Shown here in pieces: positions 18,040 through 36,000 of a stretch of DNA of 64,000 nt. Below the pieces are notes generated by a model. The model saw nothing but the letters and a program-made list of their open reading frames with translations. It was not told the origin of the DNA and did no database searches. Position 1 is the stretch's first letter. The number at the start of each line of letters is the position of its first letter. The position numbers and the translations under genes are program-made. The stretch is taken from positions 62,001 to 126,000 of the forward strand of contig NZ_VIAQ01000008.1 in NCBI RefSeq assembly GCF_006546655.1. The letters are read 5' to 3'. The stretch is from Methanolobus vulcani (lineage in GTDB: Archaea > Halobacteriota > Methanosarcinia > Methanosarcinales > Methanosarcinaceae).

Positions 18040-18714
18040 ATGAGCTACGTATATGCAGCCGTGATCGGCATACTGATAGGCATCTCTATCTTCGGACTAA
18101 AGACCGGAGTAGGGTGTGGCTTTTCGACTGTAAAGAAAAAAGATGTACTGATACTTGCAAGTGGTTATTTTCTTATCTCCGTCATACTTGGAAGCCTTGT
18201 GGAAATGGTAGACCAGTCATATCTTGAAAAAATCTCTAATCTTGGAATGACATTACATGTATTCATTGCACTGCTTCTTATTGCTGCAGGCGTCTACACG
18301 CAGAAAAAATGGAACTGTGGACATGATGTCTCAAAAAAGACATTCCTTGTAATTTCAGTTCCCTGTCCTGTATGTCTTACAGCTCTTTTTGTATCCTGCA
18401 TGATACTTGCTTCAACCCTTGAAGTAAGCGGATGGAAGGTCGGGATTCTTGTAGGACTTGTATTCTTCATTTCAGTAATATCATCAACATTTGTCTTCAG
18501 GAAAATGAAACGCACACCTGAGGATCTTGGAACTGCAATGATGTTCCTCGGGTTATTCTATCTTCTCGGAGCAATGATAGTTCCCGCTTACATCAAGGCA
18601 AAGAAACTCAGCATGGTAATGGACTGTGGTGGCGATTTCGATATAGTTCCGCTGTTGGTATTATCAATATTCATTATTGGGGGCTATGCGCTCAATAGCA
18701 TAAGAGGTCAATAA
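18040..18714 (+). CDS. DUF2162 family putative transporter (HmuT-like?)
   Basis: Membrane protein of 224 residues with about six to seven hydrophobic helices. It carries Cys/His positions in KTGVGCGF, KKWNCGHD and VPCPVCLTALF; the CPVC pair in or near a membrane segment could bind a metal or be redox-active. It is first in a tight operon with an ExbB/TolQ-like channel, a DUF2149 protein and a CobN-like protein. From memory, bacterial hmuSTUV haem loci encode the same set; the substrate here is unknown. The start ATG at 18040 has a GGGGGAT ribosome site. Confidence 0.75.
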   Translation: MSYVYAAVIGILIGISIFGLKTGVGCGFSTVKKKDVLILASGYFLISVILGSLVEMVDQSYLEKISNLGMTLHVFIALLLIAAGVYTQKKWNCGHDVSKKTFLVISVPCPVCLTALFVSCMILASTLEVSGWKVGILVGLVFFISVISSTFVFRKMKRTPEDLGTAMMFLGLFYLLGAMIVPAYIKAKKLSMVMDCGGDFDIVPLLVLSIFIIGGYALNSIRGQ

Positions 18715-18716
18715 AA

Positions 18717-19340
18717 ATGGATGCAACTTCTTCGTTGTTTGGTATATTATATACATTTTCAGCATCATTGCTGTACCCGGTAATTATTATTCTCATATTA
18801 CTTGTGGTATTTTCTTTGATGCTCATAGGGGAATTCCTCTCAGAATATGCAAAAAGGCACAGAGATATTGAAAACCTTGAACTTTGCTGCAATGCTGTCA
18901 GAGAACAGATCAGTTCTCAGGAATTTGAAAAAGCTGCAAAGTCACTTCGCAATCTCAAGCAGAACTTTATGGTCATGAGCTTTGCAGAATCTGCAGCTGG
19001 TCATCTTGAAAAGAACATGCTTCCAGCCATTGAATGGCTTTCTCAGGAATATGAGATCAGGATGGCAAAGAGGCTGGAACAGACCAGGATCGTTGCAACA
19101 ATCTCACCAATGCTTGGTCTTATGGGTACACTTATCCCGCTGGGTCCGGCACTTATCGGTCTTTCACAGGGTGATATTGTCCAGCTTGCAAACAATCTTA
19201 TGATTGCTTTCGCTACAACCGTTATCGGACTTTTTGCAGGAACTATTGGTTATGTTCTCACCCAGATCAGGAAAAGATGGTACTGGCAGGATATGGCTGA
19301 TATAGATTATATCCTTGACACGCTGGAGGTTGAGGAGTGA
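18717..19340 (+). CDS. MotA/TolQ/ExbB proton-channel family protein
   Basis: ExbB/TolQ-like protein of 207 residues. There is an N-terminal helix (about residues 10-37), a long cytoplasmic stretch, and two C-terminal helices containing the hallmark TRIVATISPMLGLMGTLIPLGPAL and MIAFATTVIGLFAGTIGYVL. Such proteins form pentameric proton channels that power a partner through an ExbD/TolR dimer. The DUF2149 gene directly downstream (overlapping GTGA) has ExbD-like topology and is the likely dimer. An archaeon has no outer membrane, so what the motor drives is an open question; the CobN-like surface protein is the best candidate. Confidence 0.88.
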   Translation: MDATSSLFGILYTFSASLLYPVIIILILLVVFSLMLIGEFLSEYAKRHRDIENLELCCNAVREQISSQEFEKAAKSLRNLKQNFMVMSFAESAAGHLEKNMLPAIEWLSQEYEIRMAKRLEQTRIVATISPMLGLMGTLIPLGPALIGLSQGDIVQLANNLMIAFATTVIGLFAGTIGYVLTQIRKRWYWQDMADIDYILDTLEVEE

Positions 19341-19732
19341 CCAAGAGAAGTGCAAGGCGACACAGACGAACAGGACTCATTAATAATGAGGATGAACAGA
19401 ACCCTCTTACAGGGGTTGCCAACCTTTTTGATATTGCCATGGTTTTCTCAGTTGCATTACTTGTGGCACTTGTTATGTCCTACCAGATGCCTGAACTTCT
19501 CAGTCCTACAGAGGATATTACTCTTGTGAAAAACCCTGGTCAGAAGGATATGCAGATTATCATTAAGGAAGAAGGTAAACCCATCGAAGTTTTGAATATG
19601 ACCGATCAGATTGGTGGTGGTCAGGGTGAAGCACTGGGAACTGCCTACAAACTTGCTGACGGAAGAGTTGTTTACGTACCTGAAGAAGAGGATGCTGGTG
19701 AAGAGGAGGTAGAAACTACTACTTCCGGTTAA
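19337..19732 (+). CDS. DUF2149 family protein, ExbD/TolR-like topology
   Basis: Protein of 131 residues with a basic cytoplasmic N-terminus (KRSARRHRRTG), a single membrane helix (about residues 31-53, starting NLFDIAMVF with one Asp) and an extracytoplasmic domain ending in a very acidic, Thr-rich tail. The Asp at the cytoplasmic end of the helix mirrors the proton-carrying Asp of ExbD/TolR; that functional reading is inference. The GTG start overlaps the stop of the ExbB-like gene by four bases, indicating tight coupling and a common complex. Confidence 0.82.
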   Translation: MTKRSARRHRRTGLINNEDEQNPLTGVANLFDIAMVFSVALLVALVMSYQMPELLSPTEDITLVKNPGQKDMQIIIKEEGKPIEVLNMTDQIGGGQGEALGTAYKLADGRVVYVPEEEDAGEEEVETTTSG

Positions 19733-19796
19733 TTTTTTTCTTATATTAAATCAAGTAGGGTGGTTTTAACTTAAATATTATTTATTTAGGTGTAAC

Positions 19797-19823
19797 ATGG
19801 GTGGTATACACAAAATAAATTGA
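19797..19823 (+). other. possible 8-codon leader ORF before the CobN-like gene
   Basis: ATG at 19797 preceded by TTTAGGTGTAAC opens a frame of eight sense codons ending in TGA at 19821-19823, 21 bases before the preferred start of the giant gene. The ribosome site is better than many in the window. It may be chance. Confidence 0.2.
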
Positions 19824-19844
19824 ACATACAAGATGGTGGTCGAT

Positions 19845-22800
19845 ATGATAGTAAAAGATAGGAATTGGTTTAAAATCGTAGGAAAGACATTTTTGGTCTT
19901 TCTTTTATGTATAGTTATGCTCTCAGCTAATGCAATGGCATTGGATTTGAGTCAGTTCGAGCTTGTATCAAACATAGAATCAAATAGTAATGGTAACTTT
20001 ATTTTTGAAGACATCTCAAATGGTAATTACACACTAATTGCTGTCAACGAAACCAATAGTTCTAAAAGTGGTCTAATTTACTATAAGAAAGAAATAGTCG
20101 TTTCAGTTAACAACAGCGATCTTTCCGATTTTGATCTCTCACTTGATAGTAGTGACCTCACAGAATATGAAGATATCTGTTCACTTTTGGATCGCTCAAA
20201 CATTTCCGGCCGTGCTTACTATTACTCCTCTGGAATGAACAGAGAGTTCAATAAGGCATGTACTATCGTAATGCTTGATCCAGTAACACAGGAACTGGTT
20301 AAAAATACAACCAGTGACAGTTCTGGTAATTATCTGTTAACTGACATTCCAAATGGTAATTACACACTAATTGCTGTCAACGAAACCAATAGTTCCAAAA
20401 GTGGTCTAATTTACTATAAGAAAGAAATAGACGTTTCAGTTAACAACAATGATGTTTCGGATTTTGATATTTCACTTGACAGTAGTGACCTCACAGAATA
20501 CGAAGATATCTGTTCGCTTTTGGACCACTCAAACATTTCCGGCCGTGCTTACTATTACTCCTCTGGAATGAACAGAGAGTTCAATAAGGCATGTACTATC
20601 GTAATGCTTGATCCAGTGACACAGGAACTGGTGAAAAATACAACCAGTGATTCCCTTGGTAATTATCTGTTTACTGACGTTCCAAATGGCAATTACACAC
20701 TAATTGCTGTCAACGAAACCAATAGTTCCAAGAGTGGTCTAATCTACTATAAGGAACAAATACCTGTTACAGTCAACAACAGTGATCTTTCCGATTTTGA
20801 TCTCTCACTTGATAGTAGTGACCTCACAGAATACAAAGAGATCTGTTCACTTTTGAGCCTCTCAGACATTTCCGGCCGTGCTTACTATTACTCCTCTGGA
20901 ATGAACAGAGAGTTCAATAAGGCATGTACTATTGTACTCCTTAAGCCAAAATCTATATATCTTCTCCCGATAGCCGGTTTTTCAATAGACAAGACCTCAG
21001 GAGAAACTCCATTATCAATTCAGTTCACAGATCAGTCATTAAATGCTGAATCATGGTTCTGGGATTTTGGTGATGGAAGCAATTCAACCGATAAGAATCC
21101 ATCGCATACTTATCTTAGCGAGGGTACTTTTACTGTAGAACTTACGGTAACAAATTCAGAAGGTAGCGATGTAGAGACAAAGACGGACCTGATTATAGTT
21201 CAACTACCCGACCCCATCATTATACCAAATTATGATACGACATTCAAGTTATTCCTCAGTACCACCAGTGATTCCCTTGGTAATTATCTATTTACTGGCA
21301 TTCCAAACGGTAATTACACACTAATTGCTGTCAACGAAACCAATAGTTCTAAAAGTGGTCTAATTTACTATAAGAAAGAAATAGACGTTTCAGTTAACAA
21401 CAGTGATCTTTCCGATTTTGATATTTCACTTGACAGTAGTGATCTCACAGAATACGAAGATATCTGTTCACTTTTGGTCCGCTCAAACATCTCCGGCCGT
21501 GCTTACTATTACTCCTCTGGAATGAACAGAGAGTTCAATAAGGCATGTACTATTGTGATGCTTAATCCAGTAACACAGGAACTGGTTAAAAATACAACCA
21601 GTGACAGTTCTGGTAATTATCTGTTTACTGACGTTCCAAATGGCAATTACACACTAATTGCTGTCAACGAAACCAATAGTTCTAAAAGTGGTCTGATCTA
21701 CTATAAGGAACAAATACCTGTTACAGTCAACAACAATGATGTTTCGGATTTTGATATTTCACTTGACAGTAGTGACCTCACAGAATACAAAAAGATCTGT
21801 TCACTTTTGAGCCTCTCAGATATTTCGGGCCGCGCTTACTATTACTCCTCTGGAATGAACAGAGAGTTCAATAAGGCATGTACTATCTTATTGCTTGAAC
21901 ACAGATTAGTTCAATCACTCCCAGTTGCAGATTTTTCAGCAAACCAGACTTCAGGTGAAAATCCATTATCAGTACAATTCACAGATGAGTCATCAAATGC
22001 AGAATCATGGTTCTGGGATTTCGGTGACGGAAGTAACTCAACCGATCAGAATCCATCACATACATATCTTAGTGATGGAACTTTTACTGTAGAGCTTACT
22101 GTAACAAACACGGCTGGTAGCGACGCGGAGATAAAGTCAGATTTCATCACTGTCAATGCATCCAGCAATTCCAGTGACAGCTATGGATCGGTATACGAGT
22201 TTTTCCTTAGCACCAGTTGTAACAATCTAGGAGAGTTCAGTTTTGCAGATGTGCCTAATGGCGAATACAGGATTGCAGCTATTAACTGGAGTACAGCAAT
22301 GGCACCAGGTATGTGGCTTACAAATGTCACAGATGTCACCGTGGAGGATGGACTACCGGTTGATGTTGGCAATCTCTCAATGAGAAAGAACTATGAGACT
22401 ATTGACCACGATGATATCCTCTCAATGTTGAATAATACCAGCATCTCAGGTAAGACGATCGGAAAGAATCTGGATAATAAGATATCCACTGTGTTACTCA
22501 CCAACCAGTTCGGAGAGTATGTTGCTAATACAACATGTAATGAGGATGGTGAATTCCTGTTCACAGGTATCAGAAATGGGGAATATACAGTGTCAGCCGT
22601 GAATTGGAGTACAGCAATGGCACCAGGCATGTGGCTTACGAATGTCACAGATGTCACAGTAGAGTATGCTCAGCCAGTTGATGTTGGCAACCTCTCAATG
22701 AGAAAGAACTATGAGACTATTGACCACGATGCAATTCTTTCAATGTTGAATGAAACCAACATCTCAGGTAAGACTATCGGAAAGAACCTGGATAACAAGG

Positions 22801-25800
22801 TATCCACTGTGTTACTCACCAACCAGTTCGGAGAGTATGTTGCTAATACAACATGTAATGAGGATGGTGAATTCCTGTTCACAGGTATCAGAAATGGGGA
22901 ATATACAGTGTCAGCCGTGAACTGGAGTACAGCAATGGCACCAGGCATGTGGCTTACGAATGTCACAGATGTCACAGTAGAGTATGCTCAGCCAGTTGAT
23001 GTTGGCAACCTCTCAATGAGAAAGAACTATGAGACTATTGACCACGATGCTATATTTGCATTGCTTGACAGAACAACAATATCTGGTAAGACCATTGGAA
23101 AGAACCTGGATGACAAGCTCAGTGACGTTATACTCATGAGAAAGCGCACAGTTGCAGTGTCCAATGAACCTCATCTGAATGTCTCCTTTATAACGGGATA
23201 CTCATCATATAAGACACAGCTTGCCAATTTTGCTCAGAGAATTAACTCAAATTCAACATATAATATCGCAGCTAGCTACTATATTACTGATGACCTGCCA
23301 GATGATATCGATTTCAACCATACGGATATTATCTATATTGTGATGGTTACGCAGACAGCTTCTGAATTTGAGGAACAGGTCCAATTTGCTATAGACAATG
23401 GAGCAGTCGTTATCGGTAAAAACACGGATCTGCCAGAAAGTGATTATGCAATCCCTTCAAGCTTTGGTAACGATACTGAAGAATTCAAAGCCCATCTATA
23501 TGAATACTGGACAGGAACTGCAATCGATGACACAAACCTTGACAATCTCATGTTTTATCTGGCAAAGGAATATTACGGACGTGAGGATCTTACCGTTGAA
23601 GCTGCTGACTATGTGTCATCGGCCATATACCACTCTGCAATAGCAGATAAAGTTCCTGAATACATGATGCTTGATACCGAAGAATACTTTGAGTGGTATG
23701 CTAGCAGGACAGATGGTCATGCATTCGATGAAAATGCTCCAACTATAGGCATAACATTCTACCGTTCATACTATCTTGATGATATCGATGCTGTAGACAA
23801 GCTAATAGCAAGCTTTGAGGAAAAAGGAGCAAATGTGATAGCTTGTTTCGGAGACCCTGATACATCCATTGATTCATATTTTAACTACAGTGAAGAAACA
23901 AAAGTAGATGCTGTTGTTTCGTTCAATTACCGTGGAAATTACTTTGATCTTGAAGAAATGAATGTACCTGTTATAGATGCCATTCTCAACCCGAGCATGA
24001 ATGCTTCAGAATGGGCAAATTCAAGCACACCACTTGCTATTGCAAGGATGGACAGGATCTACAGACCTGAATCATACGGACTTATTGATCCGATTATGAT
24101 TGGAGCTACAGAAACAATACAGGTTGCCAACACTACTGCATATATTGCCGTGGATGAACAGATTGACTGGCTCACAGATCGTGCTATTGCACAGGCAAAT
24201 CTAGGGCTGGAGGATGAATCTGATAAGAAAGTTGTAATTATCTACTACAACCACGGCGGTGGAAAAGACAACATAGGCGCATCATATCTTGAGGTCATGC
24301 CAAGTATCGTAAACCTTCTTGAAGGAATGGAAGCTGAAGGATATGATATAGACAGTAGCATGATTCCGAACAAGACCGAACTTGTTGATCTTATTACCTA
24401 TCAGGGAAGAAATGTTGGAACATGGGCACCGGGAGAACTTGAAGCACTTGTAGAAACCGGTGAAGTTGAACTTATTCCTGAAAGCACCTATCTTTCATGG
24501 TTTAACGAACTTCCGGATGAAAGAAGGGAAGAAGTTACTGAAACATGGGGTGAAGCACCAGGAGAGATAATGGTTTACACCGATGAAAATGGTGATAAAT
24601 TCATCGTGATCCCAAAGATAAATATCAGTGACAATGTGATACTTGCACCACAGCCAACAAGAGGCTGGTTACAGGACAATGAAGTTCTCTACCATGACAC
24701 AGAACTGGCACCACATCACCAGTATATTGCGTTCTATCTCTGGTTGCAACATGAATTCGATGCAGATGTAATGGTCAACATGGGAAGACATGGAACTGTT
24801 GAATGGCTTCCTGGAAAGGAATTTGGTCTTCTGAGTGAAGAGTGGCCCGCACTTATGGTTGGTGATATACCTGTGATCTATCCATATGTAATGGATGGAC
24901 TGGGAGAAGGAATACAGGCAAAACGCAGAGGTAATGCGGTAATCATTGATCACCTTATACCTCCTGTAATATCCGCCGGTCTGTATGGTGATTATGCAAC
25001 ACTCAGCAGTGAAATCACAATATACAAGACATATGTTTCAGAAGATGAATACAAAAAGGCTCACTTCGATGATATTGTAAACCTCACAATTGCGCTCGGA
25101 CTTGATGAGCAGGTAAATATGAGCCTGGCAGAAAATGACGACACAATTGATGATTTCCTTGAAGAAGTGGATGATGTACTTATAGAACTTAAGAGCCTGT
25201 CAATGCCATATGGACTGCATGTACTTGGTGAAGCTCCTGAAGGTGACGAACTTGTGGGAATGGTCAACTCCATGCTGGGTAATAATTTTTCAGAACTTGT
25301 TGAAATGCACAATACATCTGATAGTGCATCAACAGACCTGTTAACTCTTGTATTACTTGAGAACATGCCCACAACAGATGCCCAGCTTCAGATACTTGGA
25401 ACCTCCGTGGCTGAAATTGATGAAAAATTAAATACATCCATTAAATATGCTGAATTACTTGGAGAAGCTGATAACGAAGTGCAGCAGGTTCTGAATGCGA
25501 TGGATGGTGAATACATCGAAGGAAACCTTGGTGGAGATCCTGTGCAGAAACCAGGGACACTGCCATCCGGAAGAAATTTCTATTCCTTTGATGAAAATCT
25601 TATACCTTCAGAAGAGGCATGGGACAATGCTGTAGAGCTTATCGACAAATGGCTTGCAGAATACTATGCTGAAAACGGAGAATACCCTACAAAAGTAGGA
25701 TATATACTCTGGGCTGGTGAAACCACACGTCATGAAGGAGTAATGGAAGCACAGATACTCTACCTGATGGGTATAAAGCCGGAATGGGACGACGGAGAAG

Positions 25801-27287
25801 TTGCAGGAATAACTGCGATAAATTCGTCTGATTTGGGAAGACCACGTATTGATGTGGTTGTACAGATATCAGGTCTTTACAGGGATACTTTCCCTGGAAA
25901 GATTGTACTTCTTGATCGGGCTGTAAGGCTTGCTTATGAGCAGGAAGAAACTGCAGATTGTCCAAACTATGTTAAACAGAGCGCTGATGAACTAAAACTC
26001 ATTTTCGATGAATCCATAGAAAATGAGACATTATCCCTTGATGTTGCTCAGTTCAGGATATTCGGACCTGCGCCAGATGCTTATGGAACCGGAATGGCAA
26101 ACGCAGTGGATTCCAGTGATACATGGGAAAATACATCTGAACTTGCAGAGCTCTACATAAACAAGATGTGCTACATCTATGGAGAAAATATCACGGGTCA
26201 GACAATAGCCGAATACATCAAGCAGCAGACCGGTCGTGTTGTTGAAATAGACAATACAGCTGTCTTTGAGAACAACCTAAACGGAACTGCAGCAATATTC
26301 CACAGCAGAAGTTCCAGTACTTATGGTTCTCTTGATACGGATGACTTCTACCAGTACATGGGTGGACTGTACAATGCTATTAAATATATTAGTGGCACCG
26401 ACCCGGATACCTATGTAGTGAACCTGCGGTATCTCAATGATGCAGAAATACAGACACTTCAGACATACCTCACAAACGAACTTTACGCAAGGTACCTGAA
26501 TCCATCATGGATAGCAGGAATGCAGTTAAGTGGCTTTGAAGGTGCACGTGAAATGTCAGAGTTCATTGATAATCTCTGGGGATGGGAAGCACTCAATCCA
26601 GACATTATCAGTGATGATGTATGGAATAGCGTATATGATACATACATTAATGATGCAGAGCTCAGCAACTGGATGCAGGCGAATAATCCATACGCATATA
26701 ATGCTGCACTTGCAACTATGGCTAACACAGCCCTTAAAGGAAACTGGGATCCTTCAGATGCCATCTTGAATGACATTATCAAGCGCTATGTTGAATCAGT
26801 AGTTGATTATGGAGTTACATGCTGCCATCACACTTGTGGAAATGCACTGCTTGATGACTTTGTACAGGGTCAGATGCAGGCAGCAGGAGTCAGTCTTGAA
26901 ATGCAGGAAGCATACAAGAAAGCGATGTATGAGGCTACCTTCAGGGAAGACACTCAGGTGCAACAGACTGATATCACTTCAGTAAAAACAAAAGATGATT
27001 CTCTAAATTCTATCCAAAGAGCAATGCTTGCTGAAGCAGCAGCCAACCAGAGCTCAACATCTGAATCAGGTGGTGCTGGAATAGATACAGTACAGCCTTT
27101 AGAGGAAGGCTCAAAATCCACGCCGGATGACTATGTAGAAGGTTATGAGATGACTCCTGAATCGGTGAATAATGCAGACACTACAAGCAGTCTCTCATTC
27201 TCTAGTTCAGATGTCGTTGCATCAGTATTCGTATTGGGAGCCGTTGGAGCCATATATCTGGGATTCTGGAAGAGGAGGAAAATATGA
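19845..27287 (+). CDS. giant secreted CobN-like (cobaltochelatase large subunit-like) surface protein with tandem repeats and PKD domains
   Basis: About 2480 residues. An N-terminal signal peptide (hydrophobic FLVFLLCIVMLSANAMA) is followed by five copies of a 111-residue repeat with two PKD domains inserted (WFWDFGDGSNST twice), then three copies of a 106-residue repeat. A CobN/BchH-like domain spans about residues 1105-2370, with PTRGW, VNMGRHGTVEWLPGKE, PSGRNFYSFDE and GETTRHEGVMEAQILYLMG. A C-terminal helix (SSSDVVASVFVLGAVGAIY) plus KRRK anchors it, so the chelatase-like domain faces outside the cell. ChlI/ChlD-type ATPase partners are absent, arguing against classical ATP-driven metal insertion. 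Neighbours suggest corrinoid, haem or cobalt capture, or tetrapyrrole dechelation. I prefer the ATG at 19845 (GGTGGTCGAT before it) over 19833. Confidence 0.88.
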   Translation: MIVKDRNWFKIVGKTFLVFLLCIVMLSANAMALDLSQFELVSNIESNSNGNFIFEDISNGNYTLIAVNETNSSKSGLIYYKKEIVVSVNNSDLSDFDLSLDSSDLTEYEDICSLLDRSNISGRAYYYSSGMNREFNKACTIVMLDPVTQELVKNTTSDSSGNYLLTDIPNGNYTLIAVNETNSSKSGLIYYKKEIDVSVNNNDVSDFDISLDSSDLTEYEDICSLLDHSNISGRAYYYSSGMNREFNKACTIVMLDPVTQELVKNTTSDSLGNYLFTDVPNGNYTLIAVNETNSSKSGLIYYKEQIPVTVNNSDLSDFDLSLDSSDLTEYKEICSLLSLSDISGRAYYYSSGMNREFNKACTIVLLKPKSIYLLPIAGFSIDKTSGETPLSIQFTDQSLNAESWFWDFGDGSNSTDKNPSHTYLSEGTFTVELTVTNSEGSDVETKTDLIIVQLPDPIIIPNYDTTFKLFLSTTSDSLGNYLFTGIPNGNYTLIAVNETNSSKSGLIYYKKEIDVSVNNSDLSDFDISLDSSDLTEYEDICSLLVRSNISGRAYYYSSGMNREFNKACTIVMLNPVTQELVKNTTSDSSGNYLFTDVPNGNYTLIAVNETNSSKSGLIYYKEQIPVTVNNNDVSDFDISLDSSDLTEYKKICSLLSLSDISGRAYYYSSGMNREFNKACTILLLEHRLVQSLPVADFSANQTSGENPLSVQFTDESSNAESWFWDFGDGSNSTDQNPSHTYLSDGTFTVELTVTNTAGSDAEIKSDFITVNASSNSSDSYGSVYEFFLSTSCNNLGEFSFADVPNGEYRIAAINWSTAMAPGMWLTNVTDVTVEDGLPVDVGNLSMRKNYETIDHDDILSMLNNTSISGKTIGKNLDNKISTVLLTNQFGEYVANTTCNEDGEFLFTGIRNGEYTVSAVNWSTAMAPGMWLTNVTDVTVEYAQPVDVGNLSMRKNYETIDHDAILSMLNETNISGKTIGKNLDNKVSTVLLTNQFGEYVANTTCNEDGEFLFTGIRNGEYTVSAVNWSTAMAPGMWLTNVTDVTVEYAQPVDVGNLSMRKNYETIDHDAIFALLDRTTISGKTIGKNLDDKLSDVILMRKRTVAVSNEPHLNVSFITGYSSYKTQLANFAQRINSNSTYNIAASYYITDDLPDDIDFNHTDIIYIVMVTQTASEFEEQVQFAIDNGAVVIGKNTDLPESDYAIPSSFGNDTEEFKAHLYEYWTGTAIDDTNLDNLMFYLAKEYYGREDLTVEAADYVSSAIYHSAIADKVPEYMMLDTEEYFEWYASRTDGHAFDENAPTIGITFYRSYYLDDIDAVDKLIASFEEKGANVIACFGDPDTSIDSYFNYSEETKVDAVVSFNYRGNYFDLEEMNVPVIDAILNPSMNASEWANSSTPLAIARMDRIYRPESYGLIDPIMIGATETIQVANTTAYIAVDEQIDWLTDRAIAQANLGLEDESDKKVVIIYYNHGGGKDNIGASYLEVMPSIVNLLEGMEAEGYDIDSSMIPNKTELVDLITYQGRNVGTWAPGELEALVETGEVELIPESTYLSWFNELPDERREEVTETWGEAPGEIMVYTDENGDKFIVIPKINISDNVILAPQPTRGWLQDNEVLYHDTELAPHHQYIAFYLWLQHEFDADVMVNMGRHGTVEWLPGKEFGLLSEEWPALMVGDIPVIYPYVMDGLGEGIQAKRRGNAVIIDHLIPPVISAGLYGDYATLSSEITIYKTYVSEDEYKKAHFDDIVNLTIALGLDEQVNMSLAENDDTIDDFLEEVDDVLIELKSLSMPYGLHVLGEAPEGDELVGMVNSMLGNNFSELVEMHNTSDSASTDLLTLVLLENMPTTDAQLQILGTSVAEIDEKLNTSIKYAELLGEADNEVQQVLNAMDGEYIEGNLGGDPVQKPGTLPSGRNFYSFDENLIPSEEAWDNAVELIDKWLAEYYAENGEYPTKVGYILWAGETTRHEGVMEAQILYLMGIKPEWDDGEVAGITAINSSDLGRPRIDVVVQISGLYRDTFPGKIVLLDRAVRLAYEQEETADCPNYVKQSADELKLIFDESIENETLSLDVAQFRIFGPAPDAYGTGMANAVDSSDTWENTSELAELYINKMCYIYGENITGQTIAEYIKQQTGRVVEIDNTAVFENNLNGTAAIFHSRSSSTYGSLDTDDFYQYMGGLYNAIKYISGTDPDTYVVNLRYLNDAEIQTLQTYLTNELYARYLNPSWIAGMQLSGFEGAREMSEFIDNLWGWEALNPDIISDDVWNSVYDTYINDAELSNWMQANNPYAYNAALATMANTALKGNWDPSDAILNDIIKRYVESVVDYGVTCCHHTCGNALLDDFVQGQMQAAGVSLEMQEAYKKAMYEATFREDTQVQQTDITSVKTKDDSLNSIQRAMLAEAAANQSSTSESGGAGIDTVQPLEEGSKSTPDDYVEGYEMTPESVNNADTTSSLSFSSSDVVASVFVLGAVGAIYLGFWKRRKI
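20021..21973 (+). repeat. five type-A 333-bp coding repeats interrupted by PKD modules
   Basis: A near-identical unit recurs at about 20021, 20354, 20687, 21308 and 21641. Spacing is exactly 333 bases except between copies 3 and 4 (621 bases), where a PKD module is inserted. Each unit encodes NGNYTLIAVNETNSSKSG, later DISLDSSDLTEY and AYYYSSGMNREFNKACT. Long tracts are identical at DNA level, including silent sites, which indicates recent duplication or gene conversion. Confidence 0.92.
22361..23135 (+). repeat. three type-B 318-bp coding repeats
   Basis: The segment beginning TGATGTTGGCAA recurs at 22361, 22679 and 22997, exactly 318 bases (106 codons) apart. The encoded unit contains NLSMRKNYETIDHD, SGKTIGKNLD and WSTAMAPGMWLTNVTDV. 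Copies are almost identical at DNA level over most of their length. They link the PKD-rich stalk to the CobN-like domain. Confidence 0.92.
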
Positions 27288-27320: not shown

Positions 27321-27358
27321 AATTAATAATTAAACAGGGTATAAGACCAGAGAAAATA

Positions 27359-27422
27359 AGACACTCCCAAAAAGCCGCCAAGCAAGAATAGGGAGTGTCA
27401 TCAAACGTTATCGGGGGATAAC
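27359..27422 (+). ncRNA. candidate structured leader RNA, copy 1
   Basis: A perfect 9-bp stem (GACACTCCC at 27360-27368 with GGGAGTGTC at 27391-27399) encloses a loop holding AGCCGCCAAGCAAG (27373-27386). A second perfect 6-bp hairpin (GTTATC/GATAAC, loop GGGG, 27407-27422) abuts the ATG and displays the G-rich ribosome site in its loop. A second copy at 27921-27983 keeps the loop and the second hairpin, while its first stem differs by compensatory changes. This supports a selected RNA fold, such as a riboswitch-like or protein-binding leader. I match it to no known family. Confidence 0.6.
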
Positions 27423-27656
27423 ATGCAAATAAAAATAAAATCGATATTAGTACTTAGCATATTATTGATGGCAGCACTAACCTGTGTTGCTGCGGGTTCA
27501 GAAACAGACTACGGCACACCAGTGCAGGATACTGTAAACAACGACAATAGTATGAATCCGTCATTCTCAAGTTCTGATATCCTTGCTTCTGTATTTGTTC
27601 TGGGGGCGCTTGGATTTATATATAGGATTCTGGATGAGGAGGCAATTCTAAACTAG
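27423..27656 (+). CDS. small secreted membrane-anchored protein sharing the CobN tail, C-terminus probably frameshifted
   Basis: Protein of 77 residues: signal peptide (LVLSILLMAALTCVAAG), a short polar stalk, then PSFSSSDILASVFVLGALG, which matches the C-terminal anchor of the giant CobN-like protein. After GFIY the frame reads RILDEEAILN and stops at TAG. In the alternative frame the same DNA reads GFWMRRQF and a stop, matching GFWKRRKI of the giant protein, so a small indel near 27618-27625 has altered the tail. It may be a remnant of a CobN-like paralogue that lost its middle, or a small partner. It has its own leader and terminator. Confidence 0.65.
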   Translation: MQIKIKSILVLSILLMAALTCVAAGSETDYGTPVQDTVNNDNSMNPSFSSSDILASVFVLGALGFIYRILDEEAILN

Positions 27657-27661
27657 AAATT

Positions 27662-27693
27662 GGCACTTTTCCTGAAAAGTGCCTTTATTTTAT
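27662..27693 (+). terminator. terminator of the small CobN-tail gene
   Basis: GGCACTTTT and AAAAGTGCC form a perfect 9-bp stem with a CCTG loop, followed by TTTATTTTAT. It begins five bases after the TAG stop. Confidence 0.8.
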
Positions 27694-27920
27694 ATGATTC
27701 TTTACTACTAGTATTTACATATGTATATACAAATTACTATTAGTAAAAAGGAGTATATATGTTTGAATTATACACTTAGTTACTTAGTATATACAATTAA
27801 ATAATAATAGTATGGGTGGTTCAATAAAATATATTCCTATTTTAGAGTTCCAGCCAGCGCATTAAGCATGAACTAATAACAAGGTTATGTTCATGTGATC
27901 TTAAAAAACAATGTATCCGT
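27694..27920. other. AT-rich spacer with an imperfect inverted repeat
   Basis: No credible gene is seen. An imperfect inverted repeat of about 17 bases per arm (27701-27746, TTTACTACTAGTATTT against AATTACTATTAGTAAA) is followed by AAGGAG and an ATG at 27759 that opens only six codons. The stretch carries several TA-rich elements that could serve as a promoter for the second leader copy. Confidence 0.4.
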
Positions 27921-27983
27921 AAACACTTCTCTGTAGCCGCCAAGCAAGTTCGAGAGTGTTCTTACACATTATCGGGGGATAAC
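27921..27983 (+). ncRNA. candidate structured leader RNA, copy 2
   Basis: The conserved loop AGCCGCCAAGCAAG (27935-27948) sits between AACACTTCTC (27922-27931) and GAGAGTGTT (27952-27960). These pair through nine base pairs with one bulged T, while the base pairs differ from copy 1 in a compensatory way. The hairpin TTATC-GGGG-GATAA (27969-27982) then ends one base before an ATG, as in copy 1. The downstream ORF is broken, but the RNA fold is intact. Confidence 0.58.
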
Positions 27984-28100
27984 ATGTAACATACAAAAGT
28001 AATTTCATTATTATTAAATGTATTGTTTCTTTTTGTGCTAACTAATATTTCTGCTATCTGTGTGGCAGATTTAAAATGTCTTTTGATTATGATTTCATGA
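27984..28100 (+). pseudogene. decayed small secreted-protein gene (stop at codon 2)
   Basis: The ATG after leader copy 2 is followed at once by TAA. Reading on in the same frame gives HTKVISLLLNVLFLFVLTN and then ISAICVAD, an obvious signal peptide, before a TGA at 28098-28100. The tail region found in the intact copy is missing. It is therefore a remnant of a second leader-controlled small gene with a nonsense codon and a deletion. Translation from a downstream start cannot be excluded, but none is evident. Confidence 0.6.
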
Positions 28101-28316: not shown

Positions 28317-31300
28317 ATGACGAATAGGAAAAAAATTGCATTCATCTTCATAATTTTATTGTTTTTTGCACCTCTTGCTTCGGCAAATAATGACAACACA
28401 ATTTTTTTGAAAGCGGGCAATATTGATACTGATAATCAAATAGATCAGAACGCATCTGAGCAGAATATGATACAAACGTCTTCTGTCTCAGAGACATTGG
28501 ATAGTTCCGAAAGATATTACATTGTGCAATTTAATGGGCATGTTACAGAACAGTGGAAAAACGAAATAAAATATGTAGGTGCTGAATTTTTTGATTATAT
28601 CCCAAATAATGCTTATTTGTTACGGATGGATGAGACTGAAAAATATCTAGTGGAATCTTTCGATTTTGTATATTGGATAGGTGATTATTTACCTGAATAT
28701 AAAATTGATCCTGCTATAGAAAATTATAGTAATATAATATCTTTGAGTTCAAGCGAAATAGTCGATAATAAAATAAATTTATCAGTCATTATTTTTGACT
28801 CTGAGAATATCACAAGGATTGCAGAGGAAATCAATTCAATAAATGGAACCATCATCAATAGCTATGATCCCCTTCTAAAAGTAGAAATCCCTGAATACAA
28901 AATATATGAAATAGCAACAATAAATGGAGTCTACTGGATTGAAAACTACTCAGACCCTGTTCTTTTCAACGATGTAGCTGCCGAAATAATGAATGTAGAA
29001 CCTGTACACAGCAATCTCAAACTTAACGGAAGTGGACAAATCGTTGCTGTATGTGATACTGGATTGGATACAGGTGTTAATGAATCAATACATGAAGATA
29101 TAAGGGGAAGAGTCGTAGATATTATTGATTACTCAGGTGATGGAGCTGAAGATTATGCAGGACACGGTACGCATGTTGTAGGATCAATTCTTGGAGATGG
29201 AACTCTCTCATCGGGTCAATATAAAGGGATAGCACCAGAAGCAAGTCTTGTGTTTCAAGCTGTGCAAAAGAACACAGACTCCACAGATAAAATGTCTGGA
29301 ATCCCCTCTTTGGAAGTACTGTTTCAGGATGCCTACAATCTCGGAGCAAATATACATAGTGATAGTTGGGGAGATCCAAGTAATATAGGTGGATATACGG
29401 AATGGTCACAGCAAGTAGATCAATTTATGTGGGATCACCCTGAAATGCTAATCATCTTTGCTGCTGGTAATGAGGGTGTTGATGTTGATAGAGATGGAGT
29501 GATAGATAAGAATTCAATAACTAGTCCGGCAACAGCAAAGAATTGTATTACTGTTGGTGCTTCAGAAAATGAAAGGGACATCATAACATATGTATGGGGT
29601 ACTTCTTATGGAAGTCCTATTAGTATGGATTATCAAACCGATAATAGCAGTGGTTTAGCTGCATTTAGTAGTAGAGGGCCCACTGATGACAATAGAATAA
29701 AACCTGACTTAGTTGCTCCGGGAACATTTGTAGCTTCTACACGCTCCAGTTTAGCTACCATGTTTGATTATGGAATTACAAATACTAACTATGCATATTT
29801 AAGTGGAACAAGTATGTCTACACCACTTGTTTCGGGTTCTGCAGCTCTTGTTAGAGAATATTATACTGAAGTTGAACAATTGAATAGTCCAAGTGCGGCT
29901 TTGATAAAAGCTACGTTGATTAACGGCGCATATGATATGACTCCTGGTCAATATGGAACCGAAAATAATAACGACGAGATATCTGGAAGACCGGACTATT
30001 CACAAGGTTGGGGACGTGTTGATGTCGAAAACTCAATACTTGTGGAATACCCTGAGGTAATCGCATATTTTGATAACGTCGCACTTTCTGATTCAAAATC
30101 ATGGATTCATGAATATGACTATATAGAAAGTGGTCTGTCTGCAAGAGCAACTCTTGTATGGACGGATTATCCTTCATCGTTGCCTTCATCAAAGGCACTT
30201 TACAATGACCTTGATCTGGTAATCTCAAGTTCATCAAATTTATATTATGGAAATGGTGGCCAAGATCACATAAATAATGTAGAAGGGGTTGAAATTGAGA
30301 CAACATCCGACGAGAACTATACAATAACTGTTGATGGGTATGATGTTCAGGAGGGGCCACAGCCCTTTGCACTTGTATTCTCTTTCACATGTGACAACAA
30401 TGAATTCCCTGCAAACGGTTCCTATGCTCCCAGTTCCATAACTGGAGTATCTACTGATGTTGTTCATCCAGGTGGGGTGGACGAAAATTTCATAGAAATG
30501 AAAATCGATGAAAACCCTGTTACTTCATTTACTTCTAATACTATAACCGATGGATATAGGATCGAATATGATACTTCTGATGCTTATCAGGCTGGAGGAC
30601 ATAATGTATCGATTACTGCTTCAACTGTGAGTGGTCAGCAATTCTCTTACGAGTGGGAGTTCAATGTTCTTCCTGAAATCACCAGTTTCGAGTTTAGTGA
30701 CCTTTCAGTTGCCGGAACAATTGATGGTGATGCCAAAACCATAACAGCCACAGTACCTTATGGAACCGATGTTACTGATCTTGTTCCTACTATAATTCAT
30801 ACCGGTTCCAGTATTTCCCCCGGTTCCGGTATTTCACAGGATTTCAGCAGTCCAGTAGTTTATACCGTTACAGCAGCAGATGGCACAAGTCAGGACTATA
30901 CGGTAACTGTTACTGTGGCACTCAATCCTGCAAAAGAAATCACCAGTTTCGAGTTTAGTGACCTTTCAGTTACCGGAACAATTGATGCTGATACCAAGAC
31001 CATAACAGCCACAGTACCTTACGGAACTGTTGTTAGCGATCTTGTTCCTAGTATCGTTCATACCGGCTCCAGTATTTCCCCAATTTCTGGAGTTTCACAG
31101 GATTTTACAGAATCTGTTGTTTATAATGTAACTGCAGCAGATGGCACAAGTCAGGAATATACTGTAACTGTTAATATGGCACTGAACCCTTCTAAATCAA
31201 TTACCAGTTTCGAGTTTAGTGACCTTTCAGTTATCGGAACAATTGATGCTGATATCAAGACCATAACAGCCACAGTACCTTATGGAACCGATGTTACAGA

Positions 31301-32939
31301 TCTTGTTCCTACTATCGTTCATACCGGTTCCAGCATTTCCCCAAGTTCTGGAGTTTCACAGGATTTTACAGAATCTGTCGTTTATAATGTAACTGCAGCA
31401 GATGGCACAAGTCAGGAATATACTGTAACTGTTAATATAGCACTGAACCCTTCTAAATCAATTACCAGTTTTGAGTTTACTGATCTTTCAGTTACCGGAA
31501 CAATTGATGCTGATATCAAGACCATAACAGTCACAGTACCTTATGGAACCGATGTTACCGACCTTGTTCCTACCATCGTTCATACTGGTTCCAGCATCTC
31601 TTCAGGTTCCGGAGTTTCCGATGATTTCAGTAGTCCAGTGGTTTATACCGTTACCGCAGCAGATGGCACAAGTCAGGACTATACAGTAACTGTTACTGTG
31701 GCACTGAATCCTGCTAAATCAATTACCAGTTTCGAGTTTACAGATCCTGTTGCTATTGGACATATAAACGAAACTGAAAAAACAGTGACAATGACAGTCC
31801 CTAATGGAACTGATGTTACTGCCCTTGTCCCTAGTATCATTCATGCCGGTTCCAGTATTTCCCCAGATTCCGGAGTTTCACAGGATTTCACAGAATCTGT
31901 TGTTTATAATGTAACTGCAGCAGATGGAACAAGTCAGGAATATACTGTAACTGTTACTATTGCTCCTGCCAATGCTAAGGAAATAACCAGTTTCAAGTTC
32001 ACAGATCCTACGGCTGAAGGCGTGATTAATGAAACAGCAAAGGCAATTACTCTAACAGTACCATATGGAACAAATGTTACAGCTTTGGTACCTATAATAG
32101 AATATACAGGACAAAGTTTGTTCCCCGAGGCAGGAATTTCGCAGAATTTTACAGAATCGGTTGTATATAACGTAACTGCGGTGGATGGAACAAGCCAGGA
32201 ATACGTAGTAACAGTTGAAGTTGCTAATCAAATCATTACAACAACCTCTACTTCCACTTCCAGTGGTGGTGGAGGCGGAGGTGGTGGTGGCGGTACCACT
32301 GGAGAAGAATTTGAGAACATCGCAGTAAAGGATGCAAGCTCCGTTTTCGTTGGAACAGGTAATGTTAATTTTGAGTTCTACAGAGATGGCAACGATATTC
32401 AGTATGTTAGCTATGATTCACTGAAGAATTCAGGAACTATCTCTGTGACAATAGAGGTACTGAATGATAAATCTACATTTGTTTCTTCTCTTCCTGCAGG
32501 AGAGATTTACAAGAACATAAACATCTGGGTTGGTAAGGTAGGATATGCAACAGAAAATAACATTGCTAATCCTGTGATTGGGTTCAAAGTACCAAGAAGC
32601 TGGATAGAGGAAAATAATATTGATGAGGGAAGCATTGTTCTTGAAAGATATGATGGTGGCTGGAGCAGACTCTCAACCACACAGACAGGTTCTGACGATG
32701 AATATCTGTACTTTGAGGCAAGTACACAGGGATTCTCATCTTTTGTTATCATGGGTGAATCCATGGTAATTGAGAGTAGTCTGAATTCAGTAGATTCTCA
32801 ATTCTCAACAGCCGATGAAGAACTGGAATCAAATATCACAGCAGAAGACTCTGAACCCGAAAATACTTTGAATGCACTTTCAGGCTTGATATCATGTCTG
32901 ATTCTAAGCCTTGTCTGCTTCCTATATAGGAAGCAGTAA
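28317..32939 (+). CDS. secreted subtilisin-like S8 protease with six DUF5018-type repeats and a PGF-pre-PGF domain
   Basis: Protein of 1540 residues. Order: signal peptide (IFIILLFFAPLASA), a propeptide-like region, the S8 catalytic domain with Asp247 (VCDTGLD), His283 (GHGTHV) and Ser499 (SGTSMSTP), a beta-rich P-domain-like region, six repeats of 87 residues (about 787-1308), a polyglycine linker, a PGF-pre-PGF-type domain (VKDASSVFVGTGNVNFEF onward) and a C-terminal helix ending YRKQ. The triad is complete, so it should be active on the cell surface. It is followed by a second subtilase of the same build, with which it shares the catalytic and C-terminal domains but not the repeats. Confidence 0.92.
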   Translation: MTNRKKIAFIFIILLFFAPLASANNDNTIFLKAGNIDTDNQIDQNASEQNMIQTSSVSETLDSSERYYIVQFNGHVTEQWKNEIKYVGAEFFDYIPNNAYLLRMDETEKYLVESFDFVYWIGDYLPEYKIDPAIENYSNIISLSSSEIVDNKINLSVIIFDSENITRIAEEINSINGTIINSYDPLLKVEIPEYKIYEIATINGVYWIENYSDPVLFNDVAAEIMNVEPVHSNLKLNGSGQIVAVCDTGLDTGVNESIHEDIRGRVVDIIDYSGDGAEDYAGHGTHVVGSILGDGTLSSGQYKGIAPEASLVFQAVQKNTDSTDKMSGIPSLEVLFQDAYNLGANIHSDSWGDPSNIGGYTEWSQQVDQFMWDHPEMLIIFAAGNEGVDVDRDGVIDKNSITSPATAKNCITVGASENERDIITYVWGTSYGSPISMDYQTDNSSGLAAFSSRGPTDDNRIKPDLVAPGTFVASTRSSLATMFDYGITNTNYAYLSGTSMSTPLVSGSAALVREYYTEVEQLNSPSAALIKATLINGAYDMTPGQYGTENNNDEISGRPDYSQGWGRVDVENSILVEYPEVIAYFDNVALSDSKSWIHEYDYIESGLSARATLVWTDYPSSLPSSKALYNDLDLVISSSSNLYYGNGGQDHINNVEGVEIETTSDENYTITVDGYDVQEGPQPFALVFSFTCDNNEFPANGSYAPSSITGVSTDVVHPGGVDENFIEMKIDENPVTSFTSNTITDGYRIEYDTSDAYQAGGHNVSITASTVSGQQFSYEWEFNVLPEITSFEFSDLSVAGTIDGDAKTITATVPYGTDVTDLVPTIIHTGSSISPGSGISQDFSSPVVYTVTAADGTSQDYTVTVTVALNPAKEITSFEFSDLSVTGTIDADTKTITATVPYGTVVSDLVPSIVHTGSSISPISGVSQDFTESVVYNVTAADGTSQEYTVTVNMALNPSKSITSFEFSDLSVIGTIDADIKTITATVPYGTDVTDLVPTIVHTGSSISPSSGVSQDFTESVVYNVTAADGTSQEYTVTVNIALNPSKSITSFEFTDLSVTGTIDADIKTITVTVPYGTDVTDLVPTIVHTGSSISSGSGVSDDFSSPVVYTVTAADGTSQDYTVTVTVALNPAKSITSFEFTDPVAIGHINETEKTVTMTVPNGTDVTALVPSIIHAGSSISPDSGVSQDFTESVVYNVTAADGTSQEYTVTVTIAPANAKEITSFKFTDPTAEGVINETAKAITLTVPYGTNVTALVPIIEYTGQSLFPEAGISQNFTESVVYNVTAVDGTSQEYVVTVEVANQIITTTSTSTSSGGGGGGGGGGTTGEEFENIAVKDASSVFVGTGNVNFEFYRDGNDIQYVSYDSLKNSGTISVTIEVLNDKSTFVSSLPAGEIYKNINIWVGKVGYATENNIANPVIGFKVPRSWIEENNIDEGSIVLERYDGGWSRLSTTQTGSDDEYLYFEASTQGFSSFVIMGESMVIESSLNSVDSQFSTADEELESNITAEDSEPENTLNALSGLISCLILSLVCFLYRKQ
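30675..32240 (+). repeat. six 261-bp coding repeats in subtilase 1
   Basis: Units of 261 bases (87 codons) start near 30675, 30936, 31197, 31458, 31719 and 31980, each encoding ITSFEF(S/T)D at its start and VYNVTAADGTSQEYTVTV near its end. The first four are close to identical at DNA level and the last two are more diverged, which suggests expansion from the N-terminal side of the array. Confidence 0.9.
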
Positions 32940-33057
32940 TCTTATTTTTTCTAAATACTCATCTATTTTCTCAATATGCATATCTATTTTATAGTGCAAT
33001 ACATATATATGTCTCTATAATAATAACGTCCTATTCTGATTATAGCTGAGGATGTTT

Positions 33058-36000
33058 ATGTGCGCTAAAAACAAGATTCTGATCTGCCTGGCCATGATTA
33101 TCATGTCAACACCATTTTCAGTATCAGCAGGCATAAATAACACTGATCTGGCAAATGACGATATGCTTCTTCTAAAAGCAGGACACGTAAACACAACAGA
33201 TTCCGGTGAAAGTCAAAATGAGATTCAGTCTATGTCATCTCTTCTTTTAGATAGATCATCAAACTACTATATTGTACAGTTTTCAGGCCTTGTAAAAGAG
33301 GAATGGAAATATAATGTCAGCTCAAAAGGTGCAGAGCTATATGATTATGTTCCAAATAATGCTTTTATTGTAAAAATGAATTCAAGTATCAAAAACCAGG
33401 TTCAATTACTGGATTTTGTCAAATGGGTGGGTGAATATAAGTCATCATATAAATATGATCCCGAAATAACTACTGGCAACACAGACACAGAATTTTTGTT
33501 TATTGAAAAGGAAGAAACTCAGAGATATTATGTTTCCCTCTTTTCTGAAGATGAATACACACTAACAGTTGAATCACTTGAAGCTTTTGGAATTGAGGTC
33601 CTCGGAGGTTACAGAAAAACTATCAGTGTACAGGCATCAAAAGATCAGATTGATGATATAGCCACAATTACAGGAATCAGTTGGATAGAAGAATATATCC
33701 AGCCAACAATACACAATAATGTTGCTGCTGAAATAATCACTACTGATGTTGTTCATGATGCATATGGCTTAAAGGGTACCAATCAGACTGTCGCTGTTGC
33801 AGACACAGGAATTGATATTGGCGTTAACAATGAGTCCATGCATGCTGACCTTCGTGGAAGAATAGTTGCAATATTTGATATTGCAGGGGATAATGAAAAA
33901 GCGGATCTTTATTCAGGGCATGGAACTCATGTATCAGGTTCGGTTCTTGGAAATGGAAGCAAGTCAGGTGGGCTATATGCAGGAATGGCACCAGAAGCCG
34001 AGTTGGTATTTCAGGCTCTCGGCTATTATAATACAATAACTGGTTCTGAGGGATTGAAGTTACCCTATGGTGGTTTGGAAGAATTATTCCAGCAAGCCTA
34101 TGATGAAGGAGCAAGAATACACACTAATAGTTGGGGTTCTGATGAATATGGAACTTATACAGAACACTCTAAACAGGTAGATCAGTTCATGTGGGATCAT
34201 CAGGATATGCTGATTCTTTTCTCAGCCGGAAATGAAGGAGTTGATTCCGATAGAGATGGTGTAATAGATGAGGATTCCCTTTGCTCACCGGCAACTGCAA
34301 AGAATTGCCTCACTGTTGGCGCATCCGAGAATAATAGAGGATCCAAATTCTCAATAGGAGATTATACAACTTGGGGACATGCATGGAATGCTTCTTTTCC
34401 TGTATATCCAATATCTAATGATTACATGGCAGATGACAGCAACGGAATTGCTGCTTTCAGCAGTCGTGGACCAACAAATGATGAAAGGATTAAACCAGAT
34501 GTTGTTGCCCCCGGTACTTTTATCGCATCTACAATATCAAGTGTTGCAAGTGGAACTGGTTGGGGTGTTGTCAGTGATAACAGTTACTACTTGTATATGG
34601 GTGGAACCAGTATGTCTACACCAATTACAGCAGGAGCTGCTGCACTTGTAAGAGAATATTATACGGAAGTTGAAAATCTCACCAGTCCAAGCGCTGCGTT
34701 ACTAAAAGCCACTATAATAAACGGTGCATACAATATAACCCCTGGACAATACGGAACTGGAGACTATCAGGAGATTGATGGGAGGTATGATTATTCTCAG
34801 GGATGGGGACGTGTTGATATTACAAACTCCATATATCCAGATTCTCCAGTTGTAATGAGATATTATGATTATGTTTCTCTTAATTCCAGTGAATCCTGGA
34901 ATGTAAGTTACGATATACTTTGTACATCAGAAACTGTGCGAATAACGCTTGTATGGACAGATTATCCATATGCTGAAACTTCTGATGATAATAATCTTAC
35001 ACTTGTGAATAATCTTGATCTTATTGTGGAAGCACCAGATGGCACATATTATGGAAACGGTGCTCCTGACATAAAAAATAATGTGGAAGGCGTTGAACTA
35101 CTAGAACCAGTTGCAGGTACTTATACAATAATAGTAAATGGAACAAATATTCCAAAGGGTCCGCAGAATTTCTCACTTGTACTCTCTTACGGGGAAGTCG
35201 GTGACATCTACATGTACCCTGAGCACAATTCCTATACGACCAATGCAAGCACTGAAGTCTATATGAATCTCACACATGCCGATGGAATTAACCAAAGTTC
35301 CATTGAAATGCAAATAGACGGTTTATCGGTATTATTTTCTAACGAAACAATATCAAGTGGATATAAGATTCAAAATATTACGGCTCAGTCATATTCTGAA
35401 GGATTCCACAATGTGTCTGTAAGTGCACTTACAAATCAGAACGAGGAACTGAACTACGGATGGAGGTTCTATGTCAGTGTTGAGGACAATATACTGACTG
35501 TTCAGAGTCCTCTGGAAAATTCTGTTATACAGGAAAACACAGTCATGATAAATGCCAGCGACAATAAGTGGTGTGATTTCTGGTACAACATAAACAATGG
35601 AGTAAACTCCACGTCGGAGTACGGCTATTCCTTCAATACAAGCACAGAACTTGAAGAAGGGACTTATAATATCACGCTGTTTGCCAGAGACATAACAAAC
35701 TATACTAATTCCACAACAGTCAACTTTACTGTGTTTACAGAACCAGCAGATATTGATTCCCCTACATCAGGCACAATCTATTATCTGCCTGATAGCAGCA
35801 GTTTTACATTGAACGGTACAGTGGGAGTTGCAACCAATGTTTCTGTTTATGTGAACGGAGCTCTGACCAATTATTCTGAACCGGTTTCAAACGGAGTGTT
35901 CAATGTAAGTAATGTTCCACTTTCAAACGGGACAAATACCATAAATGTCAGTGCTATGTACAATAATTCTCTGACAAATTACTTCACTGCAAATACTACA

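Follow-up and report, generated by a model that had tools for sequence, protein, structure and literature searches.

A conserved structured element at the start codons of cobN-type genes in Methanosarcinaceae that is probably an antisense RNA

Two leaders in the 64,000-nucleotide stretch of Methanolobus vulcani DNA analysed here (the window) share a loop and a hairpin that runs up to an ATG, and they raise the question of what kind of element has been kept in two copies, which strand carries it and which gene it serves. The first-pass annotation had described a common loop, a hairpin with a GGGG loop before each ATG and enclosing stems that differ in sequence yet pair almost fully, and we found both leaders as described, with a core-to-core spacing of 562 (Table 1). 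Between copies 1 and 2, two stem pairs are exchanged on both sides (G-C to A-T and C-G to T-A). Copy 1 folds much better than its shuffles (z -5.8); copy 2 alone, folded on the plus strand, does no better than shuffles (z 0.1), so the window copies taken by themselves say little for a selected fold. The 13-mer GCCGCCAAGCAAG has two sites in the 2.9 Mb genome, which are the two window leaders, and contig 14 carries one more copy, which has diverged.

A covarying RNA family upstream of cobN-type genes

When relatives were searched at the DNA level, most genomes of the genus turned out to carry the leader, with matching GTDB records in Methanolobus and in others including Methanomethylovorans. 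A covariance model built from five copies gave family matches in 52 of the 112 genomes of the family, and across the order a refined model (R2) matched 60 of 186 genomes, spread over 12 of 27 genera; the genome count is 60-62 of 186 depending on the model, a minus-strand model that includes a promoter adding two genomes to the plus-model set. Across a phylum-wide sample of 393 genomes, all matches fell inside the window's own family. Genome G078, for example, has minus-strand copies at 971118-971229 and 975807-975917. These homologues are related to one another, and the locus counts given below are therefore not independent. Weak matches of model R1 (L119-L123) had no main hairpin and were taken as chance, as were pattern matches in Armatimonadetes, Thermoflavimicrobium, Pleurocapsa and Vogesella. 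Rfam 15 (4227 families, both strands) returned chance matches only, none of them sensible even below the gathering score, in agreement with the annotation's failure to place the fold in a riboswitch family. The 104-motif paper makes no mention of CobN or methanogens; the family may have been described elsewhere before. The leaders are an RNA family of methanogenic archaea that is undescribed as far as Rfam 15 goes.

The homologues show that the fold is selected. Over 53 distinct hairpins, arms paired with their own partners at a mean of -20.1 kcal/mol compared with -12.1 kcal/mol for swapped arms (z -12.9). When 21 leaders were aligned almost without gaps by MAFFT (A4), 89% of cells formed standard pairs, against 24-38% in slid controls, and ten pairs changed on both sides. 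The start hairpin covaries as well, mainly at its outer pair (G-C to A-T), with rarer exchanges of T-A to C-G and A-T to G-C in L109 and L083. The proposal of a covarying fold with a conserved loop thus stands, and the covariation of the enclosing stems extends to about 90 homologues. Three other explanations of the leader were rejected. A leader peptide or uORF attenuator would need a reading frame, and stop codons interrupt each of the frames at roughly one locus in four, with no frame or peptide conserved. A pseudoknot between the main loop and the Shine-Dalgarno site, judged by eye, fails because the loop variants and Shine-Dalgarno variants do not covary, and the UGAUGA that might signal a C/D box or k-turn in one locus lacks conservation. 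In genus g17 (L060, L064, L072 and L101), GTGTGGATAATG 5' of the hairpin complements CATTATC of the start hairpin, which makes an alternative pairing possible there.

Apart from two orphans (L117 and L118), the clear copies lie directly 5' of an ATG that opens a signal peptide or a signal-peptide remnant, and all 32 long ORFs tested behind the element carry a CobN-Mg_chel domain. These observations confirm the link to CobN that the first-pass annotation had guessed; the covariance search over Methanosarcinales that it proposed recovered further homologues, with covarying stems, that precede CobN-type genes. Many copies sit 3' of a small gene encoding a protein with ...ADGRVVYVPE... at its C-terminus, like the window's chelatase operon after its DUF2162 and MotA/ExbB genes. 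There are also cobN genes without the element: G089, the largest genome, has 12 CobN matches and one copy.

Table 1. Features of the two leader copies and their surroundings (window coordinates; E-values from covariance models are rough)
Feature	Position	Strand	Basis or remark
DUF2162 and MotA/TolQ/ExbB genes, upstream of chelatase	18040..19337	+	Pfam
CobN-type surface chelatase	19833..27284	+	Pfam: CarboxypepD_reg, PKD repeats, CobN-Mg_chel 1224-2310
Copy 1, predicted antisense RNA	27350..27426	-	Model R3 match, E 3e-15, and fold; 3' end approximate
Copy 1, main hairpin	27360..27399	-	Sequence and covariation; core 27374-27383 is apical P2/loop
Copy 1, main stem arms GACACTCCC / GGGAGTGTC	27360-27368 / 27391-27399		Sequence
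Copy 1, loop core GCCGCCAAGC	27374-27383
Copy 1, start-proximal hairpin	27407..27422	-	Loop is complement of Shine-Dalgarno GGGG
Copy 1, start-proximal arms GTTATC / GATAAC	27407-27412 / 27417-27422		GGGG loop; ATG at 27423
ORF of 77 aa after copy 1	27423..27653	+	Signal peptide and C-terminal cobN anchor; catalytic part missing
Copy 1, predicted BRE/TATA promoter	27445..27468	-	In signal-peptide codons; weight-matrix score 16.1, second best
Copy 2, predicted antisense RNA	27900..27987	-	Model R3, E 4e-14; ends near T6 (plus-strand A-run ~27903-27908)
Copy 2, main hairpin	27922..27960	-	P1 arms with one bulge
Copy 2, main stem arms AACACTTCTC / GAGAGTGTT	27922-27931 / 27952-27960		One T bulged
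Copy 2, loop core (same apical core GCCGCCAAGC)	27936-27945
Copy 2, start-proximal hairpin	27968..27983	-	Outer pair A·C on plus, G·U on minus
Copy 2, start-proximal arms ATTATC / GATAAC	27968-27973 / 27978-27983		Outer A·C mismatch on plus; ATG at 27984
Start of dead ORF after copy 2	27984..27989	+	ATG TAA
Copy 2, predicted BRE/TATA promoter GAAACAATACATTTAATAATAATG	28006..28029	-	Weight-matrix score 23.4, best

The strand that carries the fold

Considering that RNA stems tolerate G·U pairs and not A·C, and that an A·C on one strand is a G·U on the other, we examined the imperfect pairs of the family. Read on the plus strand, the main stem has 15 A·C and 6 G·U contexts and the start hairpin has A·C at 57 loci and G·U at 3, with the proportions reversed on the minus strand, and the third pair of the apical helix is C·A on plus and nearly fixed. 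The bias of the main stem alone has a p value of 0.08, and combined with the start hairpin it reaches 0.0003, computed over related homologues. In tRNA stems of the same genus the counts were 25 G·U and 0 A·C, a comparison that the tRNA finder may itself tilt towards G·U. Folding energies point the same way. The RNAalifold consensus of one and the same alignment is -29.8 kcal/mol on the minus strand and -19.4 kcal/mol on plus, and single sequences are more stable on minus for 67 of 92 main hairpins and 86 of 92 start hairpins. In a minus-strand alignment of 20 homologues, 95.5% of cells are paired (start hairpin, 99.5%; P2/apical helix, 100%), and the start hairpin reaches across the start codon and codon 2. 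A minus model that includes the promoter outscores the plus model on the same loci (for example 117 versus 88 bits), partly through its greater length. The excess of A·C on plus, the stronger consensus fold and the fuller pairing on minus together indicate that the structure is most likely selected in an RNA of the antisense strand. In the start hairpin, the plus strand is also bound by its Shine-Dalgarno site and AUG, and A·C mismatches there could serve accessibility.

A second line of evidence lies in the coding sequence behind the leader. We found that 92 loci share a minus-strand motif, CAACAATACACTTAATACTAAT, between -42 and -21 relative to the C of CAT, followed by a variable pyrimidine-rich stretch and then TTG|CAT, with the G in 96%. 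Read leftwards, this layout resembles that of archaeal promoters (BRE, TATA box, spacer and start site), and we predict one there. Transcription from the conserved G beside the complement of the start codon would put the 5' end of the RNA exactly where its 5' hairpin begins. The codons follow the motif at synonymous positions: Leu11 is TTA in 72 of 74 cases (7% in the rest of the same genes), Leu14 is TTG in 79 of 81 (10% in the rest of the same genes) and Gln2 is CAA in 57 of 62 (background 22%), and the p values for these preferences are overstated because the loci are related. Its TAA core is present in loci from all 12 genera. When a weight matrix was trained without the window copies, its two best matches among about 128,000 window positions on both strands fell exactly behind the two leaders. 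The motif also matches upstream of tRNA-Asn in three Methanolobus genomes (10-16 bits, compared with about -8.5 for shuffles); most of the other tRNA promoters examined gave no match. At the other end, the minus strand after the main hairpin is U-rich and almost free of G, and a run of at least four T occurs within 35 nt after the hairpin at 74 of 94 loci, compared with 9 of 94 for A runs of that length. The argument from the U-tract is weakened because 5' untranslated regions tend towards A-richness in general.

The apical loop provides a third observation. At 12 loci from at least two lineages, five in Methanolobus (L020, L024, L106, L107 and L167) and seven in genus g20 (L161, L163, L165, L168 and L170-L172), the apical segment is reverse-complemented between arms of the same kind and the fold is kept. 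Template switching within an inverted repeat would be able to produce such an inversion. The inverted core is conserved in five species, which indicates that the element still works. Such a change should disable a folded aptamer but not a sense/antisense pair, whose two strands invert together. YUNR, the U-turn motif, is found in the minus loop of all 82 normal loci and in the plus loop of all 12 inverted ones, which is suggestive only, because YUNR complements the conserved CAAG and partly restates it. We also considered that a normal copy might kiss an inverted one in the same genome and rejected this, as G008 and G013 have only the inverted copy and, in g20, the two loops are poorly complementary.

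These results bear on the reading of the first-pass annotation, in which the fold is a cis-regulatory leader of the cobN mRNA, whether riboswitch-like, protein-binding or thermosensing, whose main hairpin senses a signal and whose second hairpin exposes or conceals the Shine-Dalgarno site. Such a leader would account for a place fixed directly 5' of the ATG of one gene family, for covarying stems and for a Shine-Dalgarno site held in the start hairpin, and a probable plus-strand promoter upstream implies that the leader is also part of the mRNA. It is nevertheless unlikely. The fold is weaker on the plus strand, where A·C outnumbers G·U, as would not be expected of an aptamer in the sense strand, and a sequence-specific aptamer is hard to reconcile with apical loops that were inverted and conserved. 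A sense leader also leaves the codon-level motif unexplained, and copies persist 5' of dead ORFs. What survives of the proposal is that a covarying hairpin does lie at the ribosome site; control of it by a ligand or protein through the mRNA fold is not supported, as the asymmetry of imperfect pairs, the energies, the leftward motif and the U-rich tract favour an antisense RNA.

Predicted antisense RNAs and their probable targets

We consider it probable that the element is a minus-strand small-RNA gene with about 100 copies in Methanosarcinaceae, two of them in the window, and that it encodes a cis-encoded antisense RNA of about 75-80 nt that masks the Shine-Dalgarno site and AUG of cobN genes. 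The predicted BRE/TATA promoter, within the first ~14 plus-strand codons, would direct transcription leftwards, starting in the complement of codon 2. The transcript would open with a 5' hairpin of 9-11 bp whose loop complements the Shine-Dalgarno G-run and whose arm spans the start codon, continue into a second hairpin of 9-13 bp with a conserved U-turn-type loop (CUUG/CUGG) and end at the U-rich tract. The predicted RNA of copy 1 would read 5'-GCAUGUUAUC-CCCC-GAUAACGUU..., then the stem GACACUCCC/GGGAGUGUC around the apical core GCUUGGCGGC, then the tail UUAUUUUCUC. It would be complementary over its full length to the mRNA leader of the cobN-type chelatase, pairing would probably begin between a loop and its mirror-image loop on that mRNA, and the resulting duplex would block ribosome binding and mark the mRNA for decay. 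The conserved structure, strand bias, promoter-like synonymous constraint, U-rich tract and position over the Shine-Dalgarno site and AUG were computed; from these sequence features we infer transcription, kissing, repression and action on paralogues. At about 90 loci the element lies opposite its predicted target, and its sequence complements both the start codon and the ribosome site, as in cis-antisense RNAs. The predicted targets are CobN-type chelatases and not the small toxic peptides of type I toxin-antitoxin systems.

Both window copies are intact but precede a shortened or dead ORF (Table 1), and broken or remnant ORFs also lie behind L071, L073, L076, L079-L081, L083, L092 and L173; at most of these loci the promoter and the hairpins are undamaged. 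Two genomes of genus g23 (G094 and G102) carry the orphans L117 and L118, in which the copy and the dead ORF behind it lie upstream of a cobN that has its own start, at a distance of about 0.8 kb; their main hairpins have diverged. Copies that precede no working gene suggest an RNA that exists in its own right, perhaps with the other paralogues as its targets. A related possibility is that the minus-strand RNA is real and acts in trans on main targets elsewhere, the overlap with cobN being historical. The copies beside dead ORFs and the distance from cobN in the two g23 genomes speak for this, but almost all other copies overlap a cobN-type start and the exact complement of the loop occurs at no other place in this genome, and we regard it as improbable. 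Still less probable is a DNA palindrome (an operator, cruciform or recombination site) whose symmetry would be maintained by a bound protein or by template switching in replication, which would fit near-perfect arms with few wobble pairs, an apical inversion of the kind expected from template switching and an apparent indifference to orientation, but which predicts equal numbers of G·T and A·C where A·C dominates, sits poorly with arms that vary widely among loci, unlike protein half-sites, and leaves the leftward promoter motif and the covariation of the Shine-Dalgarno hairpin unexplained.

Returning to the antisense RNA, we put forward, tentatively, a multigene network in which each copy, live or orphaned, would control several cobN paralogues through its near-identical start hairpin, with the variable stem adding specificity to each pair. 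Orphans would act in trans, the set as a whole might decide which surface chelatase is displayed, and the antisense promoter would shape the codons of the signal peptide and, in part, its amino acids.

Several features of the surrounding genes were observed alongside. Mini-cobN genes, which join the signal peptide to the C-terminal anchor without the catalytic domain (L079, 4091-4453; L080, 565-927; L173, 1066-1422), are kept as ORFs of ~120 aa in several Methanolobus genomes; in the window they are shortened (27423-27653) or dead. At 19833, the intact cobN no longer has the leader or the leader's promoter (window 19720-19840); upstream of it the sequence is like that of relatives (L093) up to AAGATGGTGG, after which a different start and signal peptide follow. 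In L093, L022 and L105 a second inverted repeat (for example AGTTGATTTGTTTTAAATCAACT) lies ~45-90 nt upstream of the main hairpin, just 5' of the TATA-like AATTTACATA/AATTTATAAA, and may be an operator for the cobN promoter on the sense strand. Pseudogenes of cobN with in-frame stops lie next to intact paralogues (G007 C2:1869321-1872008 and G089 C1:5460684-5463953), which points to fast turnover of the family. Behind the window leaders are two large secreted proteins, subtilase-like by eye (28317-32939 and 33052-37431).

Relation to known antisense RNAs

Archaeal antisense RNAs with a known target are few, and we know of no conserved family that has ~100 members and is associated with a single gene family. 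Among archaeal RNAs the closest precedent is sRNA162 of the related Methanosarcina mazei, which, as described, has its first 65 nt antisense to a 5' untranslated region and masks the ribosome site in trans (PMC3510493). It is a single RNA with other targets (MM2442 and MM2440-2441; PMC3510493) and does not lie over a chelatase start codon, whereas the window element belongs to a family that lies over cobN starts. Folded antisense RNAs that pair with a target mRNA are also known from SR4/bsrG and SR5/bsrE of Bacillus and RNAII of pMV158, in which YUNR U-turn loops speed the first loop-loop contact and of which SR4 and RNAII lower translation (PMC8464778, PMC4485353). Those systems are bacterial or plasmid-borne and act on toxins or a replication protein. 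The family described here differs in that it is archaeal, faces a multigene family of large surface chelatases and has its predicted promoter written into signal-peptide codons.

The chelatases beside the element resemble HmuS/CobN-type chelatases in their CobN-Mg_chel domain and DUF2162/ExbB neighbours; the passages on these proteins in two papers mention no RNA element (PMC12583661, PMC10846266). In Methanosarcina barkeri, CobN-like proteins vary with the iron source, and in a hydrogenotrophic methanogen they respond to nickel limitation, which makes a metal-responsive switch plausible. The antisense RNA proposed here makes exact predictions of size, strand, promoter and target. It would be a structured RNA that outlives the inversion of its own loop, with a promoter-like element that dictates the codons of a signal peptide, and, if it is true, the CobN-type surface chelatases of methanogens would gain a regulator to work with.
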